Source: an uncultured Selenomonadales bacterium (GTDB lineage: Bacteria; Bacillota; Negativicutes; Selenomonadales; Selenomonadaceae). Taken from it: DNA of 64,000 bases. Positions within the stretch are counted from its first letter, which is position 1, and each line of letters starts with the position of its first letter. A program made the translations under genes and the position numbers. The stretch covers positions 1 through 64,000 of the forward strand of contig OMYB01000004.1 of assembly GCA_900315155.1 (NCBI GenBank), in the 5' to 3' direction. Under the pieces are notes generated by a model that was given only the letters and a program-made list of their open reading frames with translations, ran no database searches and was not told the origin of the DNA. Shown here piece by piece: positions 195 through 63,639 of the stretch.

Positions 195-794
195 ATGATT
201 TTGACAGCGACAGCGATGAAGGAGCGAGAATGCGGATATCGGCAGCCGGAGCACAGGATCCGCAGGATGGTGGCTGATGGAAGGCTGGTTCAGCTTCGGC
301 GCGGGCTTTATACCGATGATGCATCGGTTTCACCCTGCGCAGCGGCGGGATTGATTTACGGACCTTCGTATATTTCCTTTGAATATGCACTGAGCTATCA
401 CGGGATGATACCAGAGCGGGTCTACACGGTTACCTGTGCGACGTTCCGGAAGAACCGCAAAAAGGAGTTTTATACGCCGATCGGGAATTTTACCTACAGG
501 GATGTACCGGCAGCTGTGTACCGGTTCGGCGTGAGGCGTGTGGAACTGAGGATAGATGAGGCATGCTTGATGGCGGAACCGGTAAAGGCGCTTTGCGATA
601 AGCTGTATACTGTCCCGGCAATGGCTGCGCAGTGGCAGATCGAGGCGTTCCTGTTCGAGGACATGCGCATGGATGCGGAGTCCCTGCGACAGATATCCGT
701 GGAGGATGTGACGTTTCTTGCTGAGCGATATCCTTCTGCGAATGTGAAGCAGTTCGCCGCATGGTTCAGAAGGTGGAGGCGGAAATATGCATGA
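195..794 (+). CDS. abiEi: AbiEi-type antitoxin / transcriptional regulator
   Basis: This is the antitoxin and autorepressor of a type IV toxin-antitoxin pair; the family neutralises the AbiEii nucleotidyltransferase without binding it directly. The 199-residue protein has an N-terminal winged-helix region (about residues 1-45, with IRRMVADGRLVQLRRGLYT) followed by the AbiEi C-terminal domain. The ATG at 195 is chosen because GGAGGG lies 6 bases upstream. An upstream in-frame TTG at 144 is the -35 box of the promoter and cannot be the start. It overlaps the toxin gene by 8 bases, as expected for translational coupling. The arrangement and downstream partner make the assignment secure, although sequence identity to characterised members cannot be measured here. 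Confidence 0.85.
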   Translation: MILTATAMKERECGYRQPEHRIRRMVADGRLVQLRRGLYTDDASVSPCAAAGLIYGPSYISFEYALSYHGMIPERVYTVTCATFRKNRKKEFYTPIGNFTYRDVPAAVYRFGVRRVELRIDEACLMAEPVKALCDKLYTVPAMAAQWQIEAFLFEDMRMDAESLRQISVEDVTFLAERYPSANVKQFAAWFRRWRRKYA

Positions 795-57622: not shown

Positions 57623-59035
57623 ATGAGAAAGTTTATGGATGAAGATTTCCTGCTCGAGACCGAGACGGCGAAGAAGCTGTTCCACGAGCACGCAGCGAAG
57701 ATGCCGATCATCGACTACCACTGCCACATTTCCCCGCAGGAGATCGCGGAGGACCGCCGGTTCGAGAACATCACGCAGGTCTGGCTCGGCGGCGACCATT
57801 ATAAATGGCGCCTGATCCGCTCGAACGGCGTCGAGGAGAAGTACATCACGGGCACGGCTTCCACGGCACGCGAGAAGTTCCAAAAGTTCGCCGAGGCCCT
57901 GCCGCGCGCGATCGGCAACCCGCTTTATCACTGGACGCACCTCGAACTCCAGCGCTATTTCCACTGCGACAAGCAGCTGAACGGTGACACGGCAGAGGAA
58001 ATCTGGGATCTCTGCAACAAGCGCCTGCAGGATCCGGATATGACGGTCCAGGGCATCATCAAGCAGTCGAACGTCAAGGTCATCTGCACGACGGATGATC
58101 CGGCGGATGACCTCAAATGGCACAAGAAGATCGCCGAGGAAGGCAAGTGCAGTGCGAAGGTCCTCCCGGCCATGCGTCCGGACGCTGCGATGCGCATCGA
58201 GAAACCGGAGTGGGCCAACTACATGCTCTACAAACTGGCTCCGGCTGCCGGCATGGAGGAGATCACGACGATGCAGGACATCCGCGATGCCCTCGCAAAA
58301 CGCATCGAGTATTTCGAATCTATGGGCTGCCGCGCATCCGACCATGCGCTCGAGTATTGCTTCTACACGCCGGCAACGGAGGAGCAGCTCGATGATATCG
58401 TCGGCAAGGTTATCAACGGTAAAGGCGAGCCGACGAAGAAAGAGCAGGAGCAGTACAAGACGGCGCTGCTGCTGTTCCTCGGCCAGCAGTATGCACGCCT
58501 CGGATGGCCGATGCAGATCCACTACAGCGCACTGCGCGACAACAACTCCAATATGTACGCGAAACTCGGCCCGGATACCGGCTTCGACTGCATCGCGACG
58601 TACAACTGCGGCGAGGGCCTCGTCCACCTCATGGATGCCCTCAACAAGCGCGAAGCTCTGCCGAAGATGATCATCTACTCGCTGAACCCGGCCGACAACG
58701 CCATGATCGGCACGATCCTCGGCTCGTTCCAGGGCCCTGAGGTCCCAGGCAAGATCCAGCAGGGCGCTGCCTGGTGGTTCAACGACACGAAGTCCGGCAT
58801 GGAGGCACAGCTCCAGAACGTCGGCAACCTCTCCGTGCTTGGCAACATCGTCGGCATGCTGACGGATTCGCGTTCGTTCCTCTCCTACACGCGTCATGAG
58901 TACTACCGCCGCATCCTCTGCAACTTCATCGGCAACCTCGTCGAGAGCGGTCAGTACCCGGCCGACATGGAGTTCCTCGGAAAGATTGTCGAGGACATCA
59001 GCTACAACAACGCAAAACGCTATTTCGGTTTCTGA
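57623..59035 (+). CDS. uxaC: Uronate isomerase
   Basis: UxaC isomerises D-glucuronate to D-fructuronate and D-galacturonate to D-tagaturonate. The 470-residue TIM-barrel amidohydrolase-like protein contains PIIDYHCHISPQEIAEDRRFENITQVWLGGDHYKWRLIRSNGV at the N terminus (HxH metal motif), VKVICTTDDPADDLKWH, GWPMQIHYSALRDNN and the late GAAWWFNDTKSGMEAQL. All are family hallmarks, and the length fits (about 470). GAAGGAG precedes the ATG. It heads a three-gene operon with its own promoter and repressor site. Confidence 0.97.
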   Translation: MRKFMDEDFLLETETAKKLFHEHAAKMPIIDYHCHISPQEIAEDRRFENITQVWLGGDHYKWRLIRSNGVEEKYITGTASTAREKFQKFAEALPRAIGNPLYHWTHLELQRYFHCDKQLNGDTAEEIWDLCNKRLQDPDMTVQGIIKQSNVKVICTTDDPADDLKWHKKIAEEGKCSAKVLPAMRPDAAMRIEKPEWANYMLYKLAPAAGMEEITTMQDIRDALAKRIEYFESMGCRASDHALEYCFYTPATEEQLDDIVGKVINGKGEPTKKEQEQYKTALLLFLGQQYARLGWPMQIHYSALRDNNSNMYAKLGPDTGFDCIATYNCGEGLVHLMDALNKREALPKMIIYSLNPADNAMIGTILGSFQGPEVPGKIQQGAAWWFNDTKSGMEAQLQNVGNLSVLGNIVGMLTDSRSFLSYTRHEYYRRILCNFIGNLVESGQYPADMEFLGKIVEDISYNNAKRYFGF

Positions 59036-59050
59036 GGAGAGGCATAAAAG

Positions 59051-60517
59051 ATGCAGAACATCGTAGATTTGTATAAACAGGAAAAGCATCCGACGCGGGT
59101 GCTGCAGTTCGGCGAGGGCAACTTCCTCCGCGCGTTCGTGGACTACGCCATCGACGTGGCGAACGAGGAGAAAGGCTTTGATGCGGACGTGTCGATCGTG
59201 ATGCCGCGCGCGAAGAAGCACAACGAGCGCTTCGACAAGCAGAAGAACCTCTACACGGTCCTGCTGCGCGGCCAGAAAGACGGCAAGGCGTACAAGGAGA
59301 ACCGCGTTATCACGTGCATCAACGAGGTCATCGGCGCCTACTGCGACTACGACCGCTTCATGGAGCTCGCCGCGTGCGAGACGCTCGAGTACGTCGTCTC
59401 CAATACGACCGAGGCCGGCATCGTCTTCAGCGATGCGGACAAGTTCGATGACTGCCCGCCGGCCACGTTCCCGGCGAAGCTCACGAAGTTCCTGTTTGCG
59501 CGCTATCAGGCATTTGACGGCGCGAAGGACAAGGGCCTCATCATGCTGCCGGTCGAGCTCATCGACCACAACGGCGAGGCGCTCAAGAAATGCGTGCTCC
59601 AGTACGCCGACCTCTGGAAGCTCGAAGATGGTTTCAAGGCATGGCTCGAGGATGCCTGTCCGTTCGTGAGCACGCTCGTCGATCGCATCGTCGCGGGCTA
59701 TCCGCGCGAACAGGCGGCGGACTATGAAAAGGAAATCGGCTATACGGACTGCCTCCTCGACCAGGCGGAGCCGTTCGGCCTCTGGGTCATCGGCGCGCCG
59801 GAGCTCCGGGACAAGCTGCCGCTGAACTCCGACAAGCTCCACGTCGAGTTCTCGAGTGACATCGACAAATTCAAAGAGCAGAAAGTCCGCATCCTCAATG
59901 GTGCGCACACGTCCATGGTCATCGGCGCCTACCTCGCCGGCCTCGACTACGTCGGGCAGTGCATGGCGGATCCCGTCGTGCGCAAGCAGCTCGACCAGTC
60001 TGTCTACGGCGAGATCGTGCCGACCGTGCACCTGCCGGAGGAAAAGGCGAAAGCCTTTGCGGACGCGGTCTTCGAGCGTTTCGAGAACCCGTTCGTCAAC
60101 CATGCTCTGCTCTCCATCTCGCTGAACTCCCTCTCGAAATGGCGCGCTCGTGTGCTGCCGACGCTGAAAGACAGTCTCGCGAACACGGGCAGTCTCCCGA
60201 AATGGCTCACGTATTCGTTTGCCGCACTCCTCGCGTTCTACCATACGGCGGAGAAAGGCGACGGCTGCCTCGTCGCAAAGCGCGCTGCGGGCGATACCTA
60301 CGAAATCCACGACGATGCGGATAAGCTCGAGAAGGTCGCGGCATGGGCAGCGGGCGACGACAAGGACTATGTCCACAGCATCATGAGCCAGGCAGATTGG
60401 TGGGGCGAAGACCTCACGAAGATCGCGGGCTTTGAGGCGAAGGTCGCCGAGCATTTCGCCCGCATCCAGGAGATCGGTGCGAAGGCGCACATCGAGGAAC
60501 TCGGAAAGCAGGCATAA
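59051..60517 (+). CDS. uxaB: Tagaturonate reductase (altronate oxidoreductase)
   Basis: UxaB reduces D-tagaturonate to D-altronate with NADH. The 488-residue protein is of the long-chain mannitol dehydrogenase family. The N terminus VLQFGEGNFLRAFVDYAIDVANEEKGF binds NAD, followed by MLPVELIDHNGEALKKCVLQYA. The catalytic region VRILNGAHTSMVIGAYLAGL carries the K.ILN.AH motif. FVNHALLSISLNSLSKWRARVLPTL is also family-typical. It lies 15 bases after uxaC and 2 bases before uxaA, which favours UxaB over UxuB (mannonate oxidoreductase). Confidence 0.93.
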   Translation: MQNIVDLYKQEKHPTRVLQFGEGNFLRAFVDYAIDVANEEKGFDADVSIVMPRAKKHNERFDKQKNLYTVLLRGQKDGKAYKENRVITCINEVIGAYCDYDRFMELAACETLEYVVSNTTEAGIVFSDADKFDDCPPATFPAKLTKFLFARYQAFDGAKDKGLIMLPVELIDHNGEALKKCVLQYADLWKLEDGFKAWLEDACPFVSTLVDRIVAGYPREQAADYEKEIGYTDCLLDQAEPFGLWVIGAPELRDKLPLNSDKLHVEFSSDIDKFKEQKVRILNGAHTSMVIGAYLAGLDYVGQCMADPVVRKQLDQSVYGEIVPTVHLPEEKAKAFADAVFERFENPFVNHALLSISLNSLSKWRARVLPTLKDSLANTGSLPKWLTYSFAALLAFYHTAEKGDGCLVAKRAAGDTYEIHDDADKLEKVAAWAAGDDKDYVHSIMSQADWWGEDLTKIAGFEAKVAEHFARIQEIGAKAHIEELGKQA

Positions 60518-60519
60518 GT

Positions 60520-62019
60520 ATGGCAGAACTGAAACTTTTCCGCATCCATCCCGAAGATAACGTCGCCGTGGCCGTGAGCCCCATCAAGAAGGGCGAGACC
60601 GTCACTCTGGGCGGGCAGGCCTATACGCCGCTCGGCGATATCCCGGCCGGGCATAAAATGGCCATCCAGCCCATCAAAAAAGGCGAGGATGTCGTGAAAT
60701 ACGGCTTCCCCATCGGCACGGCCAAGGAAGATGTCGAGCCGGGCACGTGGATGCACACGCACAACGTCAAGAGCAAGCTCGGTGACCTGCTGGACTACAA
60801 GTATGAGCCGGCAAAGGCACATCACACGGAGGTGAAGCTCGATAAAAACTATACGTTTGACGGCTACCTGCGCGAGGACGGCCGCGTCGGCATCCGCAAC
60901 GAGGTCTGGATCATCCCGACCGTCGGCTGCGTGAACGCCATCGCGCGCACGATCGAGAGCCAGAGCCAGTCCTTTCAGACCGACCACATCGACGGCATTT
61001 TCGCGTACAGCCATCCGCATGGCTGCTCGCAGCTTGACGGGGACCAGGAGCGCACGCAGAAAATCCTCTCCGGCCTCGTACACAGTCCGAATGCCGGCGC
61101 CGTGCTTGTGCTCTCGCTCGGCTGCGAGAACAACCAGGTCGCGCTCATGAAGCAGGCCATCGGCGACTACAACCCCGAGCGCGTGAAATTCCTCGTCTGC
61201 CAGGACGTCGAGGACGAGATCGCCGAGGGCGTGAAGCTCGTCAAAGAGCTTTGCGCCTACGCCGACCGGTTCACGCGCACGCCGCAGCCGCTCGGCAAGC
61301 TCACGATCGGTCTGAAATGCGGCGGCAGCGATGGTTTCTCCGGCATCACGGCGAACCCGCTCGTCGGCTCCATCGCGAACAAAGTCACGGCCGCGGGCGG
61401 CACGGCTATCCTCACGGAGGTCCCGGAGATGTTCGGCGCCGAGACGCTGCTCATGAACCGCTGCAAGGATGAGGCGACGTTCCAGAAGACCGTCAACCTC
61501 ATCAACGGGTTCAAGGAATACTTCATGCGCTACGGCGAGAAGATCAACGAAAACCCGTCGCCGGGCAACAAAGAAGGCGGCATCACGACGCTCGAGGACA
61601 AGAGCCTCGGCTGCGTGCAGAAGGGCGGCACGGCTCCGGTCATGGACGTCCTGAGCTACGGCGACCGCGCCCACGAACAGGGCCTCCTGCTCCTGCAGGG
61701 CCCGGGCAACGACCTCGTTGCGGCCAACGCCCTCGCGGCAGCCGGCTGCGACATGGTCCTCTTTACGACCGGCCGCGGCACGCCGTTCGCCTGCCCCGTG
61801 CCGACTGTGAAAATCGCGAGTAACTCCCGCCTCGCCGCGCATAAGAAGAACTGGATCGACTTCAACGCCGGCCAGCTCATCGAAGGCCGTTCCATGGATG
61901 CGGTCAGCGAAGATTTCCTCCAGTACATCCTCGACGTCGCCTCCGGCCGCAAGCAGGCCAAGAGCGAGAAACTCGACAAGCACGAGCTCGCCATCTTCAA
62001 AGACGGTGTAACCCTGTAA
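60520..62019 (+). CDS. uxaA: Altronate dehydratase
   Basis: UxaA dehydrates D-altronate to KDG. The 499-residue protein has an N-terminal SAF domain (DNVAVAVSPIKKGETV; IPAGHKMAIQPIKKGEDVVKYGFPIG, residues 1-95) and the large C-terminal catalytic domain, with VGIRNEVWIIPTVGCVN, HPHGCSQLDGDQERT, LSLGCENNQVALMKQA, GLKCGGSDGFSGITANPLVG and LFTTGRGTPFACPVPTVKIASN. These contain the conserved cysteines for the metal or iron centre. Length matches the family. It ends the operon; a terminator follows. Its KDG product is taken on by KdgK and KdgA encoded about 14 kb upstream. Confidence 0.95.
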   Translation: MAELKLFRIHPEDNVAVAVSPIKKGETVTLGGQAYTPLGDIPAGHKMAIQPIKKGEDVVKYGFPIGTAKEDVEPGTWMHTHNVKSKLGDLLDYKYEPAKAHHTEVKLDKNYTFDGYLREDGRVGIRNEVWIIPTVGCVNAIARTIESQSQSFQTDHIDGIFAYSHPHGCSQLDGDQERTQKILSGLVHSPNAGAVLVLSLGCENNQVALMKQAIGDYNPERVKFLVCQDVEDEIAEGVKLVKELCAYADRFTRTPQPLGKLTIGLKCGGSDGFSGITANPLVGSIANKVTAAGGTAILTEVPEMFGAETLLMNRCKDEATFQKTVNLINGFKEYFMRYGEKINENPSPGNKEGGITTLEDKSLGCVQKGGTAPVMDVLSYGDRAHEQGLLLLQGPGNDLVAANALAAAGCDMVLFTTGRGTPFACPVPTVKIASNSRLAAHKKNWIDFNAGQLIEGRSMDAVSEDFLQYILDVASGRKQAKSEKLDKHELAIFKDGVTL

Positions 62020-62101: not shown

Positions 62102-63436
62102 TCATTTGCGTTGCTGCAAATAGCGGCGCAAAAGGAACGTGCAGTAATAAGGAAATGTGTAAATGTTGTCCACCTGACCAATATTTGCGGCACAGAGTTT
62201 GATGCCGTAGTGTATATCCGGGTAATGCGTACTGCGCACAAGGGTGGCGAGGGATTTGGCTTTGTTGTTCGTGGCCTTGACCTCGACGGGAACGAGCGAA
62301 TGTTGGTCGCGCACGAAGAAATCCTCCTCCAGGGTGGAGTTCTCTCGCTTGTAGTAGAAGAGGTCATAGCCGCACTTTTTGAGCGCCTCACCGACGAGAT
62401 TTTCGTAGAGCGCACCTTTATAGACGCCGAGATTGCCATTGGCGCGCAGCTCCGTCTGTGTCTCATCATCGAGCGAGGCCACGAGGAGCCCCGTGTCGGC
62501 ATAGTAAAGTTTGTACTTTGCCGCATCGTAATTCCCGCGCAGCGGCAGCTCTGGCGTCAGCAGGGCATGGCAGACATTGACGATGCCCGCGTCGGCCAGC
62601 CACTCGATGCAGCCGAAATAATCCTTGAAGCGCGCCCCACGTGCGACCTTGGAAATCTGGAACTTCTTGTTTTCGCGCGCCAGCTGCACCGGTATCTGAC
62701 GAAAGACCCGCAGGATACGTCCCTGATCGAGACCCACGGCGTATTTGCGGATATCTTCCTCGTAGTCGAGCAGCAGCTGACGCTGCATGGCCAGCGTTCC
62801 TTCGAACGTCCCACGATCGATATACGTGCGTACGACGGCCGGCATGCCGCCGAGGATGCAGTAGTCGAGGAACAGGCGATGCAGCAGCCGGTGCTCCAGT
62901 TCACGGAACGGCCTCTCCTCTACCATGTGAGAGAGCATGTCGGTCACGAAATCGTCGTCATAGCCCTTTGCCCAGAGAAACTCCTCGAAATCCAGGGAAT
63001 GCAACGTCACATCCGTCTTGTAGCCGACGCTGTTGCTCTCGATGGCGTGGTAGTTCAGCCCCAGCAGAGAGCCGCTGCAGATGACGTCGAAGCGTCCATC
63101 CAGTTTGAAGAATTTCAGCGTCGTCGCCATATCCGGGAACGCCTGCATTTCATCGAAAACGAGCAGGGTACCAGGTGCAAAGACAAACTCCGGATTGATG
63201 CGCGAGATATTCCGGATGACCTCCGCCGTCCCATAGCCATCGGCCAAAATCTGCCGATAGGCCGGCTGCTCGACAAAATTGATATAGACAACATGTTCAT
63301 AGTTCTGCCGTGCGAACTCCAGAATCGAGGCTGTCTTGCCCACCTGCCGTGCTCCGCGCACGATGAGTGGATAGCGCTCCTCCGCTGCCCGCCAGTTCCG
63401 CAGGTAGTCATCCAGTTTCCGTCGTAGATATGCCAT
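62102..63436 (-). CDS. AAA ATPase of the AAA_14/DUF4143 family
   Basis: The 444-residue protein has an N-terminal P-loop ATPase (LIVRGARQVGKTASILEFA, Walker A near residue 30; TLLVFDEMQAFPDMATTLKFF, Walker B near 93; ICSGSLLG, sensor-1-like). A C-terminal DUF4143 domain follows, with a PD-(D/E)XK-like region FYYKRENSTLEEDFFVRDQHSLVPVEVKATNN. These proteins are common in Bacteroidetes and Firmicutes, often in many copies, and their function is unknown; a toxin-like or mobile role has been suggested. AGGAGG lies ahead of the ATG. Direct repeats with a 33-bp period lie directly upstream (63460 onwards). Confidence 0.85.
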   Translation of the reverse strand: MAYLRRKLDDYLRNWRAAEERYPLIVRGARQVGKTASILEFARQNYEHVVYINFVEQPAYRQILADGYGTAEVIRNISRINPEFVFAPGTLLVFDEMQAFPDMATTLKFFKLDGRFDVICSGSLLGLNYHAIESNSVGYKTDVTLHSLDFEEFLWAKGYDDDFVTDMLSHMVEERPFRELEHRLLHRLFLDYCILGGMPAVVRTYIDRGTFEGTLAMQRQLLLDYEEDIRKYAVGLDQGRILRVFRQIPVQLARENKKFQISKVARGARFKDYFGCIEWLADAGIVNVCHALLTPELPLRGNYDAAKYKLYYADTGLLVASLDDETQTELRANGNLGVYKGALYENLVGEALKKCGYDLFYYKRENSTLEEDFFVRDQHSLVPVEVKATNNKAKSLATLVRSTHYPDIHYGIKLCAANIGQVDNIYTFPYYCTFLLRRYLQQRK

Positions 63437-63459
63437 ACCTTCACTGCCTCCTTTTCACT

Positions 63460-63574
63460 TTTTATGAGCGAATATAACATTATTTCTCACTATTTTATGA
63501 GCGATTTACAGCTATAATTTTACACTTTTATGAGCGAATATACCAGCAGTCAACACGATTTTATGAAAAATCCT
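63460..63574. repeat. Direct-repeat array with a 33-bp period upstream of the DUF4143 ATPase gene
   Basis: Three copies of TTTTATGAGCGA begin at 63460, 63493 and 63526; the first and third extend identically to TTTTATGAGCGAATATA. A degenerate fourth copy, TTTTATGA, begins at 63559. The interval is exactly 33 bases each time, about three helical turns, so a protein could bind all copies on one face of the DNA. The array lies in the promoter region of the minus-strand gene. It is too short and regular to be a CRISPR array. Confidence 0.8.
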
Positions 63575-63583
63575 CAATAAAAA

Positions 63584-63609
63584 ATCCGCCAGTCCGAAGA
63601 CTGGCGGAT
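63584..63609 (-). terminator. Rho-independent terminator of the gene at the right edge
   Basis: ATCCGCCAGTC (63584-63594) pairs with GACTGGCGGAT (63599-63609), an 11-bp stem and 4-base loop. On the minus strand TTTTTTATTG follows. It lies 30 bases past the stop of the minus-strand gene. Confidence 0.85.
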
Positions 63610-63639
63610 GAAATTGCGTAACATTACTGCAGCAGGCCG

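Follow-up and report, generated by a model that had tools for sequence, protein, structure and literature searches.

Private rows of direct repeats spaced 32–33 bp along the promoter are the rule for long-form AAA_14-DUF4143 ATPase genes across bacteria and some archaea, and one case lies in the window (i.e. the whole 64-kb stretch of DNA analysed here). Judged from the sequences of the window and its relatives, the array is probably a private operator that the downstream DUF4143 ATPase would bind, most likely repressing its own promoter.

Repeat array and ATPase gene of the window

An earlier sequence-only reading had described copies of a repeat with a 33-bp period upstream of a DUF4143 ATPase gene. 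These copies were confirmed: exact matches to TTTTATGAGCGA start at 63460, 63493 and 63526 and a degenerate fourth, TTTTATGAAAAA, at 63559, giving spacings of 33/33/33 bp. On the gene strand, the array consists of three exact copies of TCGCTCATAAAA and the degenerate fourth, located between the AAA_14-DUF4143 ATPase gene and the next gene. It attained the top Tandem Repeats Finder score in the window (104). Three matches to the 12-mer with at most one mismatch were found in the window as compared to 0.33 expected, and the exact 12-mer occurs three times in the whole 2.49-Mb genome, always in this array. When the 200 nt preceding the gene were scanned for ungapped self-matches, lag 33 was identified with P = 0.01, the floor for 100 shuffles. 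The minus strand, which is the coding one, gives the unit as ATATTCGCTCATAAAAGTGTA, and the conserved part is therefore longer than first described; the copies and their period were real but the extent given for the repeat (12–17 nt) was too short, the family-wide value being ~22 nt.

With limits taken from the family profile, the four footprints span ~63453 to 63574, all on the minus strand. The degenerate, 5′-most unit (63552–63574) reads TTTTTCATAAAATCGTG on the gene strand, precedes its neighbour in the array by 33 bp and has a counterpart in two relatives (L032 and L180). Unit 1 (63519–63541; ATATTCGCTCATAAAAGTGTAAA), unit 2 (63486–63508; TAAATCGCTCATAAAATAGTGAG; 33 bp from unit 1) and unit 3 (63453–63475; ATATTCGCTCATAAAAAGTGAAA; 33 bp from unit 2) each contain an exact TCGCTCATAAAA, and the last abuts a ribosome-binding site recognised from sequence (GGAGG; 63447–63451, minus strand). 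A candidate −10 box, TAAAAT (63517–63522, minus strand), sits immediately 3′ of the GTG of a unit, in the same register as a TATAAT in the relative L223 and as column 19 of the family profile. No good −35 was present at 17 bp from this TAAAAT, with a TTGACT sitting 25 bp upstream. As the −10 is imperfect and no −35 is clear, the choice of repression over activation rests on the family pattern. In the gap that separates the array from the neighbouring gene, CCGCCAGTC and GACTGGCGG form a hairpin (63580–63613; no strand assigned) that is, from its sequence, a probable terminator. On the other side, genes resembling those for hexuronate catabolism occupy 57623–62019 on the plus strand, convergent towards the ATPase gene; they comprise a uronate isomerase and a tagaturonate reductase (assigned from sequence) followed by an altronate dehydratase (assigned by Pfam).

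The proposed reader of the array is encoded at 62102–63436 on the minus strand and was analysed with Pfam, PADLOC and an AlphaFold2 model. The 444-aa product carries both defining domains of the AAA_14-DUF4143 ATPases (PF13173, E 4.5e-21, 75.6 bits against a curated cut-off of 27; PF13635, E 5.6e-31, 107.9 bits against a curated cut-off of 28.1), and matched the PADLOC PDC-S01 model (i.e. PDLC04786) at full length, over residues 4–439 (E 3.1e-147). No solved structure matched the protein by sequence and no NCBIfam model scored above its cut-off. The protein (AlphaFold2 model, pLDDT 94.5) combines an AAA+ core with a winged helix and, at its C terminus, a PD-(D/E)XK-like domain. Motif residues E, D and E-x-K are present in the correct order: E345, D372 and the E-V-K of codons 385–387 (62276–62284, minus strand). 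E345, E385 and K387 are invariant in 118 homologues; D372 is usual, with glutamate in L010. Foldseek searches with the winged-helix and C-terminal fragment gave Can2, DdmDE and McrC nucleases as best matches, with weak E-values of 0.005–0.04 and none below 0.001, and Pfam Mrr_cat matched one of 15 members weakly (E 0.0044). A nuclease fold of the modelled C-terminal domain is only weakly supported by these matches.

The sequence-only reading had also named, beforehand, absence of the copies from close relatives that keep the gene as the outcome that would count against it. Such relatives were found to retain the copies, with changes. L032, in genome G014, is 93% identical in the available part of 56 N-terminal residues and has three copies, TTCACTCATAAAAGTGTAG, TTCACTCATAAAATAGTAG and TTCGCTCATGAAATTGTG, and a degenerate one, CATGAAATAGTG; the degenerate copy is also recognisable in L180 as CATAAAATCGTG. 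Two clear copies spaced 32–33 bp are present in L007 (83%) and L180 (85%). The CTCAT core persists at 64–65% identity in L223 and in L066, the latter from a Ruminococcus MAG, and L067 (63%) retains CTCGCTCAT; once protein identity falls to 58–59%, another unit takes its place. In L223 the unit is flanked by a −35 TTGAAA and a −10 TATAAT 17 bp apart (i.e. TTGAAA-17-TATAAT). A 64% identical homologue was also observed on plasmid pRUMAL01 of the culturable strain Ruminococcus albus 7 (L348, NC_014824.1), preceded by two degenerate units, TTCGCTC and TTCACTC, 32 bp apart; its core lacks CAT and its loop has D in place of the N366 of the window's protein.

Arrays across the long-form family

A scan of the upstream regions of other DUF4143 genes, as the sequence-only reading had suggested, demonstrated that arrays are the norm in the long-form family. 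With the lag left free over 12–70 and significance set at P ≤ 0.01, upstream repeats were detected for 157 of 265 unique long-form genes. The lag was 31–34 in 134 of these and 63–67 in 19, such that 153 of the 157 had a lag of 31–34 or twice that. Among the first 206 long-form genes, 131 were significant upstream as compared to 2/208 inside the gene and 13/203 downstream. Every lag-32/33 match among 307 control upstream regions led to a DUF4143 gene, the sources being duplicates that had been removed from the long-form set, one truncated copy, divergent neighbours with a common array and a distant paralogue found blind (L130), whilst control matches with lags of 34 and 65–66 (in L078, L097 and L099) were unrelated. 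Chance repeats were ruled out by the shuffles together with controls taken inside the genes, downstream of them and at neighbouring genes. The shuffle test gave no significant array for ~40% of the long-form genes, of which some appear to have a degenerate one (e.g. L018) and others none (e.g. L030). The earlier proposal, that one protein occupies phased sites ahead of a DUF4143 gene, is supported both by retention in relatives and by the family-wide pattern.

Named hosts of arrays belong to 11 phyla, including the archaeal Methanobacteriota and Thermoplasmatota; outside the Bacillota this breadth derives from a scan of genome contigs whose 80 best matches are biased towards the subfamily of the window's gene. 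An array is also carried by a Vibrio plasmid. Other units were found at the same spacing in the same and in other genomes, for example CTCCCTTGAAAAAAACCAG in 4–5 copies, ACGATTTTATGTAAAA in 3–4 and ATTCGTTCTTAAAAATGTA in three. The genes are sporadic and mostly chromosomal, and occur additionally on plasmids and viral contigs. A pattern scan of viruses for the window's unit without the gene gave no match; the same scan for CCCTTGAAAAA gave two contigs, one having the gene (L275/L342) and the other ending at the array (L343). Several further observations were made during the survey. A long-form gene with AAGTGCGGAAAAATGTAT repeated 66 bp apart is present on L349 and on many near-identical ~98 kb Bacteroides/Parabacteroides plasmids across gut Bacteroidales species. 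Several split or truncated DUF4143 genes occur at the L059 locus set (G059:C59 34729–35867) and as fragments in G014, which suggests frequent loss. In a Kiritimatiellae MAG (L104), a strong but unrelated tandem repeat with a 38-bp period lies directly 3′, in the 200 nt downstream of the gene.

The anatomy of the units was derived from the family. Of 361 spacings, 214 were 33 bp and 133 were 32 bp (96% together). Arrays contain 2–6 copies with a mode of three, and the last copy starts a median of 45 nt before the start codon. The footprint is ~22 nt: columns 0–22 are 53–90% identical between adjacent copies whereas the ~10-nt spacer is at the background level of ~38%. Orientation of the unit is fixed relative to the gene, and units conform to a general pattern, AAAA-(g/t)TC-[variable]-AAAAA-TGT. 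TATAAT was found 92 times in the 150 nt upstream of genes as compared to 27 expected, and its position relative to the unit peaks at columns 9, 19 and 22, a register that was both found and tested on the same data with anchors and thresholds of our choosing. The Bacteroidota −7 element, TAnnTTTGC, likewise peaks at column 19 (8/18). Within arrays of usually three units, TATAAT fell in the last unit in 35 cases and in the second-last in 21; units upstream of it would therefore be untranscribed. Taken with the L223 promoter and the register in the window, these data place the array over the promoter, usually with at least one unit upstream of the transcribed part.

Co-variation of units and ATPases

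The sequence-only reading had left the binding protein unnamed; privacy of the units and their co-variation with the ATPases point to the gene's own product as the putative reader. Paralogues that occur together in a genome have different units. For two paralogues in the window's genome (the two genes tested), each unit was found genome-wide in its own array only, and this confinement ruled out a regulon. Unit similarity rose with protein identity, from a background of ~0.20 to 0.34 at 60–70% and 0.42 at 70–90% identity. Proteins >60% identical in distant hosts have common units, indicating that units follow the protein and not the host.

Co-variation was assessed after regressing out overall identity. 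Along the entire chain, the window of residues 267–273 ranked first, whether all pairs, each of two separate gene sets, close pairs or distant pairs were considered. For the 3′ part of the unit, window 267–272 scored 0.263 against 0.106 for the runner-up, and R269 alone had a partial correlation of 0.45 (z 5.3). In the ATPase of the window these codons (267–272, GARFKD; 62621–62638, minus strand), which co-vary most strongly of all with the unit 3′ part (TGT), are those with which the predicted recognition helix of the winged helix begins. Helix 270–282 begins at the co-varying residues and occupies the winged-helix position in the AlphaFold2 model; its designation as the recognition helix is our reading of the predicted fold. 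TGT accompanies a GxR helix in 74 of 96 genes as compared to 11 of 62 genes with other helices. In 12 independent pairs differing in GxR, drawn from a tree built without the tested columns, the TGT changed in the same direction in 7.2 and in the opposite direction in 0.1 (median P = 0.016). When 233 columns were subjected to the tree test, R269 came top apart from P23, which scored higher but on about one pair.

A second, weaker association concerns the loop before the nuclease-motif residue D372 (codons 364–371, RENSTLEE; 62324–62347, minus strand), which appears to track the variable 5′ core. Loop 361–372 ranked first in an anchored subset of 81, but among 181 arrays the winged-helix start ranked first and the loop was secondary; the claim for the loop has therefore been lowered to that of a hypothesis. 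Proteins with KDSGL in the loop hold (C/T)TTG in the core whilst their helices and unit 3′ parts vary. N366 pairs with CTCAT, and D366 with CTC(T/G) in L068 and in R. albus pRUMAL01. Our hypothesis is that loop 364–371 follows the variable 5′ core, with part of the signal due to common ancestry.

Mechanism, rival explanations and related systems

In the proposed mechanism, the DUF4143 ATPase would bind its own promoter with one protomer or oligomer subunit per 32–33 bp, i.e. about three helical turns. The winged-helix recognition helix would read the unit 3′ part (TGT in most genes) and the loop by the nuclease-like active site may help to read the variable 5′ core (GCTCAT here). Constant spacing suggests that neighbouring units would be bound cooperatively. 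Since the row covers core promoter elements, an ATPase bound along it would most likely switch off transcription of its own gene. We infer protein binding, repression by that binding, cooperativity between units and any link to defence. As each paralogue has its own unit, many such genes could coexist in one genome without cross-talk. The arrays would give every long-form gene a predicted DNA ligand readable from its own sequence, and suggest both which residues do the reading and how dozens of paralogues escape cross-talk. Arrays and proteins together form a natural set of protein–DNA pairs for deriving a recognition code, and make one of the most common uncharacterised candidates for a defence gene amenable to testing. 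PDC-S01 is reported to rank fourth in abundance among candidate defence genes of prokaryotes, still awaiting validation, from a count of ~39,000 copies (9,986 archaeal and 29,494 bacterial; PMC12988326). Across the 5.39 million papers searched, subscription articles and preprints aside, no description of arrays of this type was found; a table entry (PMC4406477) was the sole mention of DUF4143 and no experiment on DUF4143 ATPases was encountered.

Repression is not the only role that an array read by its own ATPase might have. The row could be the switch of a defence system, on which the ATPase-nuclease is parked until an invader disturbs the array and releases or activates it, linking self-recognition to attack. 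Candidate status of PDC-S01 in defence (PMC12988326), conservation of the nuclease-motif residues, the position of the co-varying loop beside that motif and the faint likeness of the fragment to Can2, DdmDE and McrC are consistent with such a switch, but with all fragment Foldseek matches above E 0.001 we regard it as doubtful; it is compatible with a private operator and can hold on top of it. Reading of the row by a different host factor, such as a global regulator or nucleoid protein, would suit phased AT-rich sites. It is very improbable given that paralogues in one genome have different units, each confined to its own gene, and that a unit goes with its protein from host to host and changes in step with the predicted recognition helix.

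The remaining alternatives dispense with a protein reader at the promoter. Fixed orientation relative to the gene and the frequent location of the last unit downstream of the −10 would fit repeats that function in the 5′ untranslated RNA; however, location of TATAAT in the last or second-last unit leaves upstream units outside the transcript, and a constant spacing of about three helical turns fits duplex DNA, such that we give an RNA function very little credence. Just as slim is the chance that an iteron-like origin, or one end of a mobile element, accounts for the array: ORC/Cdc6 origin-binding AAA+ proteins are among the best structural matches and the genes are sporadic, occurring on plasmids and viral contigs, yet they are mostly chromosomal and their repeats lie upstream only, over the promoter, and not at both ends. 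Coincidental repetition in an AT-rich intergenic region, for which the A-tracts of the unit might speak, has a negligible probability, being excluded by dinucleotide shuffles, by the controls and by a single spacing common across phyla, and is refuted at the family level. A CRISPR array was likewise ruled out, as the units are imperfect, ~22 nt long and present in 2–6 copies with ~10-nt spacers, in contrast to identical repeats of 23 bp or more with unique spacers of similar length and cas genes; examination of the ORFs in 6 kb revealed no cas gene.

The proposed private operator, which the ATPase would read, has partial counterparts among known systems. Rows of direct repeats near the gene at roughly helical spacing, with autoregulation, are characteristic of iteron-binding plasmid initiators. 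Iterons are spaced ~20–22 bp, as compared to 32–33 bp for the DUF4143 arrays, in which no origin function was seen. Whole-model Foldseek searches gave the archaeal AAA+ ATPases SSO1545 (2fna; E 1.2e-8) and PABY2304 (2qen; E 1.8e-8) as best matches, with a TM of ~0.43–0.44 on the query and ~15% identity; neither an operator nor a demonstrated array was described for them in the accessible literature. ORC/Cdc6 proteins share the combination of AAA+ and a DNA-binding winged helix but have a TM of ~0.25, lack the nuclease-like domain and act at replication origins. Nearest among described regulators is RptR, a small repressor of restriction-modification defence islands that acts on its own defence promoter through three direct repeats, two of them overlapping the −10 (PMC12255303). 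In both arrangements direct repeats overlap the −10 of the gene's own promoter, an overlap that for DUF4143 holds at the family level, the −10 of the window being imperfect. RptR is a dedicated small regulator recognising a conserved 6-bp palindrome in 9-bp repeats (PMC12255303), whereas here the proposed reader is a 444-aa ATPase and the unit is ~22 nt, non-palindromic, gene-specific and spaced 32–33 bp. If our inference is right, the DUF4143 system is similar to RptR in its working, and it is outside the RptR family. Antitoxin autoregulation and the controller (C) proteins of type II restriction systems also limit their own expression via their own operator (PMC12255303); in contrast, DUF4143 has no separate antitoxin or controller gene but one AAA+ protein that also contains a nuclease-like domain.

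Repeats of other geometries were found upstream of related ATPases. Long upstream inverted repeats precede 17 of 23 short-form DUF4143 genes as compared to 5 of 59 long-form genes. Among 28 ATPase_2-DUF234 genes, 15 had significant direct repeats, nearly all with a lag of 15, and 19 had significant inverted repeats, the 15-bp repeats lying within palindromes. An operator of its own may therefore be a general feature of each gene in this group of related ATPases. A wider proposal, which we advance as a speculation with a low chance of being correct, is that DUF4143 ATPases form a large set of AAA+ nuclease-like proteins, each with an evolvable two-part DNA address in which the winged-helix helix would serve the 3′ part and the nuclease-domain loop the 5′ core. 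Each protein would line up as an ordered row on its own promoter, and its state there would decide between silence and attack on invading DNA, the related ATPases using other geometries (i.e. short-form palindromes and DUF234 15-bp repeats).

Individual examples of these geometries were noted. An ATPase_2-DUF234 AAA gene just past the end of the window (G000:C11 64298 onward; L265:3299–4501) has the upstream repeat-palindrome TAATTAACTTGAAAGTAATTTACTTGAAAGTTAATTA. In the 17 of 23 short-form genes concerned (L036–L053 and others, ~400–420 aa), the long inverted repeat is private and at most 130 nt upstream, such as CGACTAATTTATAATTGAATTATAAATTAGTCG in L050, and some of these inverted repeats may be terminators. 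The sole DUF4143 gene with expression data is TT_P0211 of Thermus thermophilus, which is reported to have changed 6.6-fold in a plasmid-presence experiment (PMC4406477). This gene (L351:14854–16074, pTT27) proved to be a short form without an array, and its upstream region contains the palindrome TGAATGActaTCATTCA.
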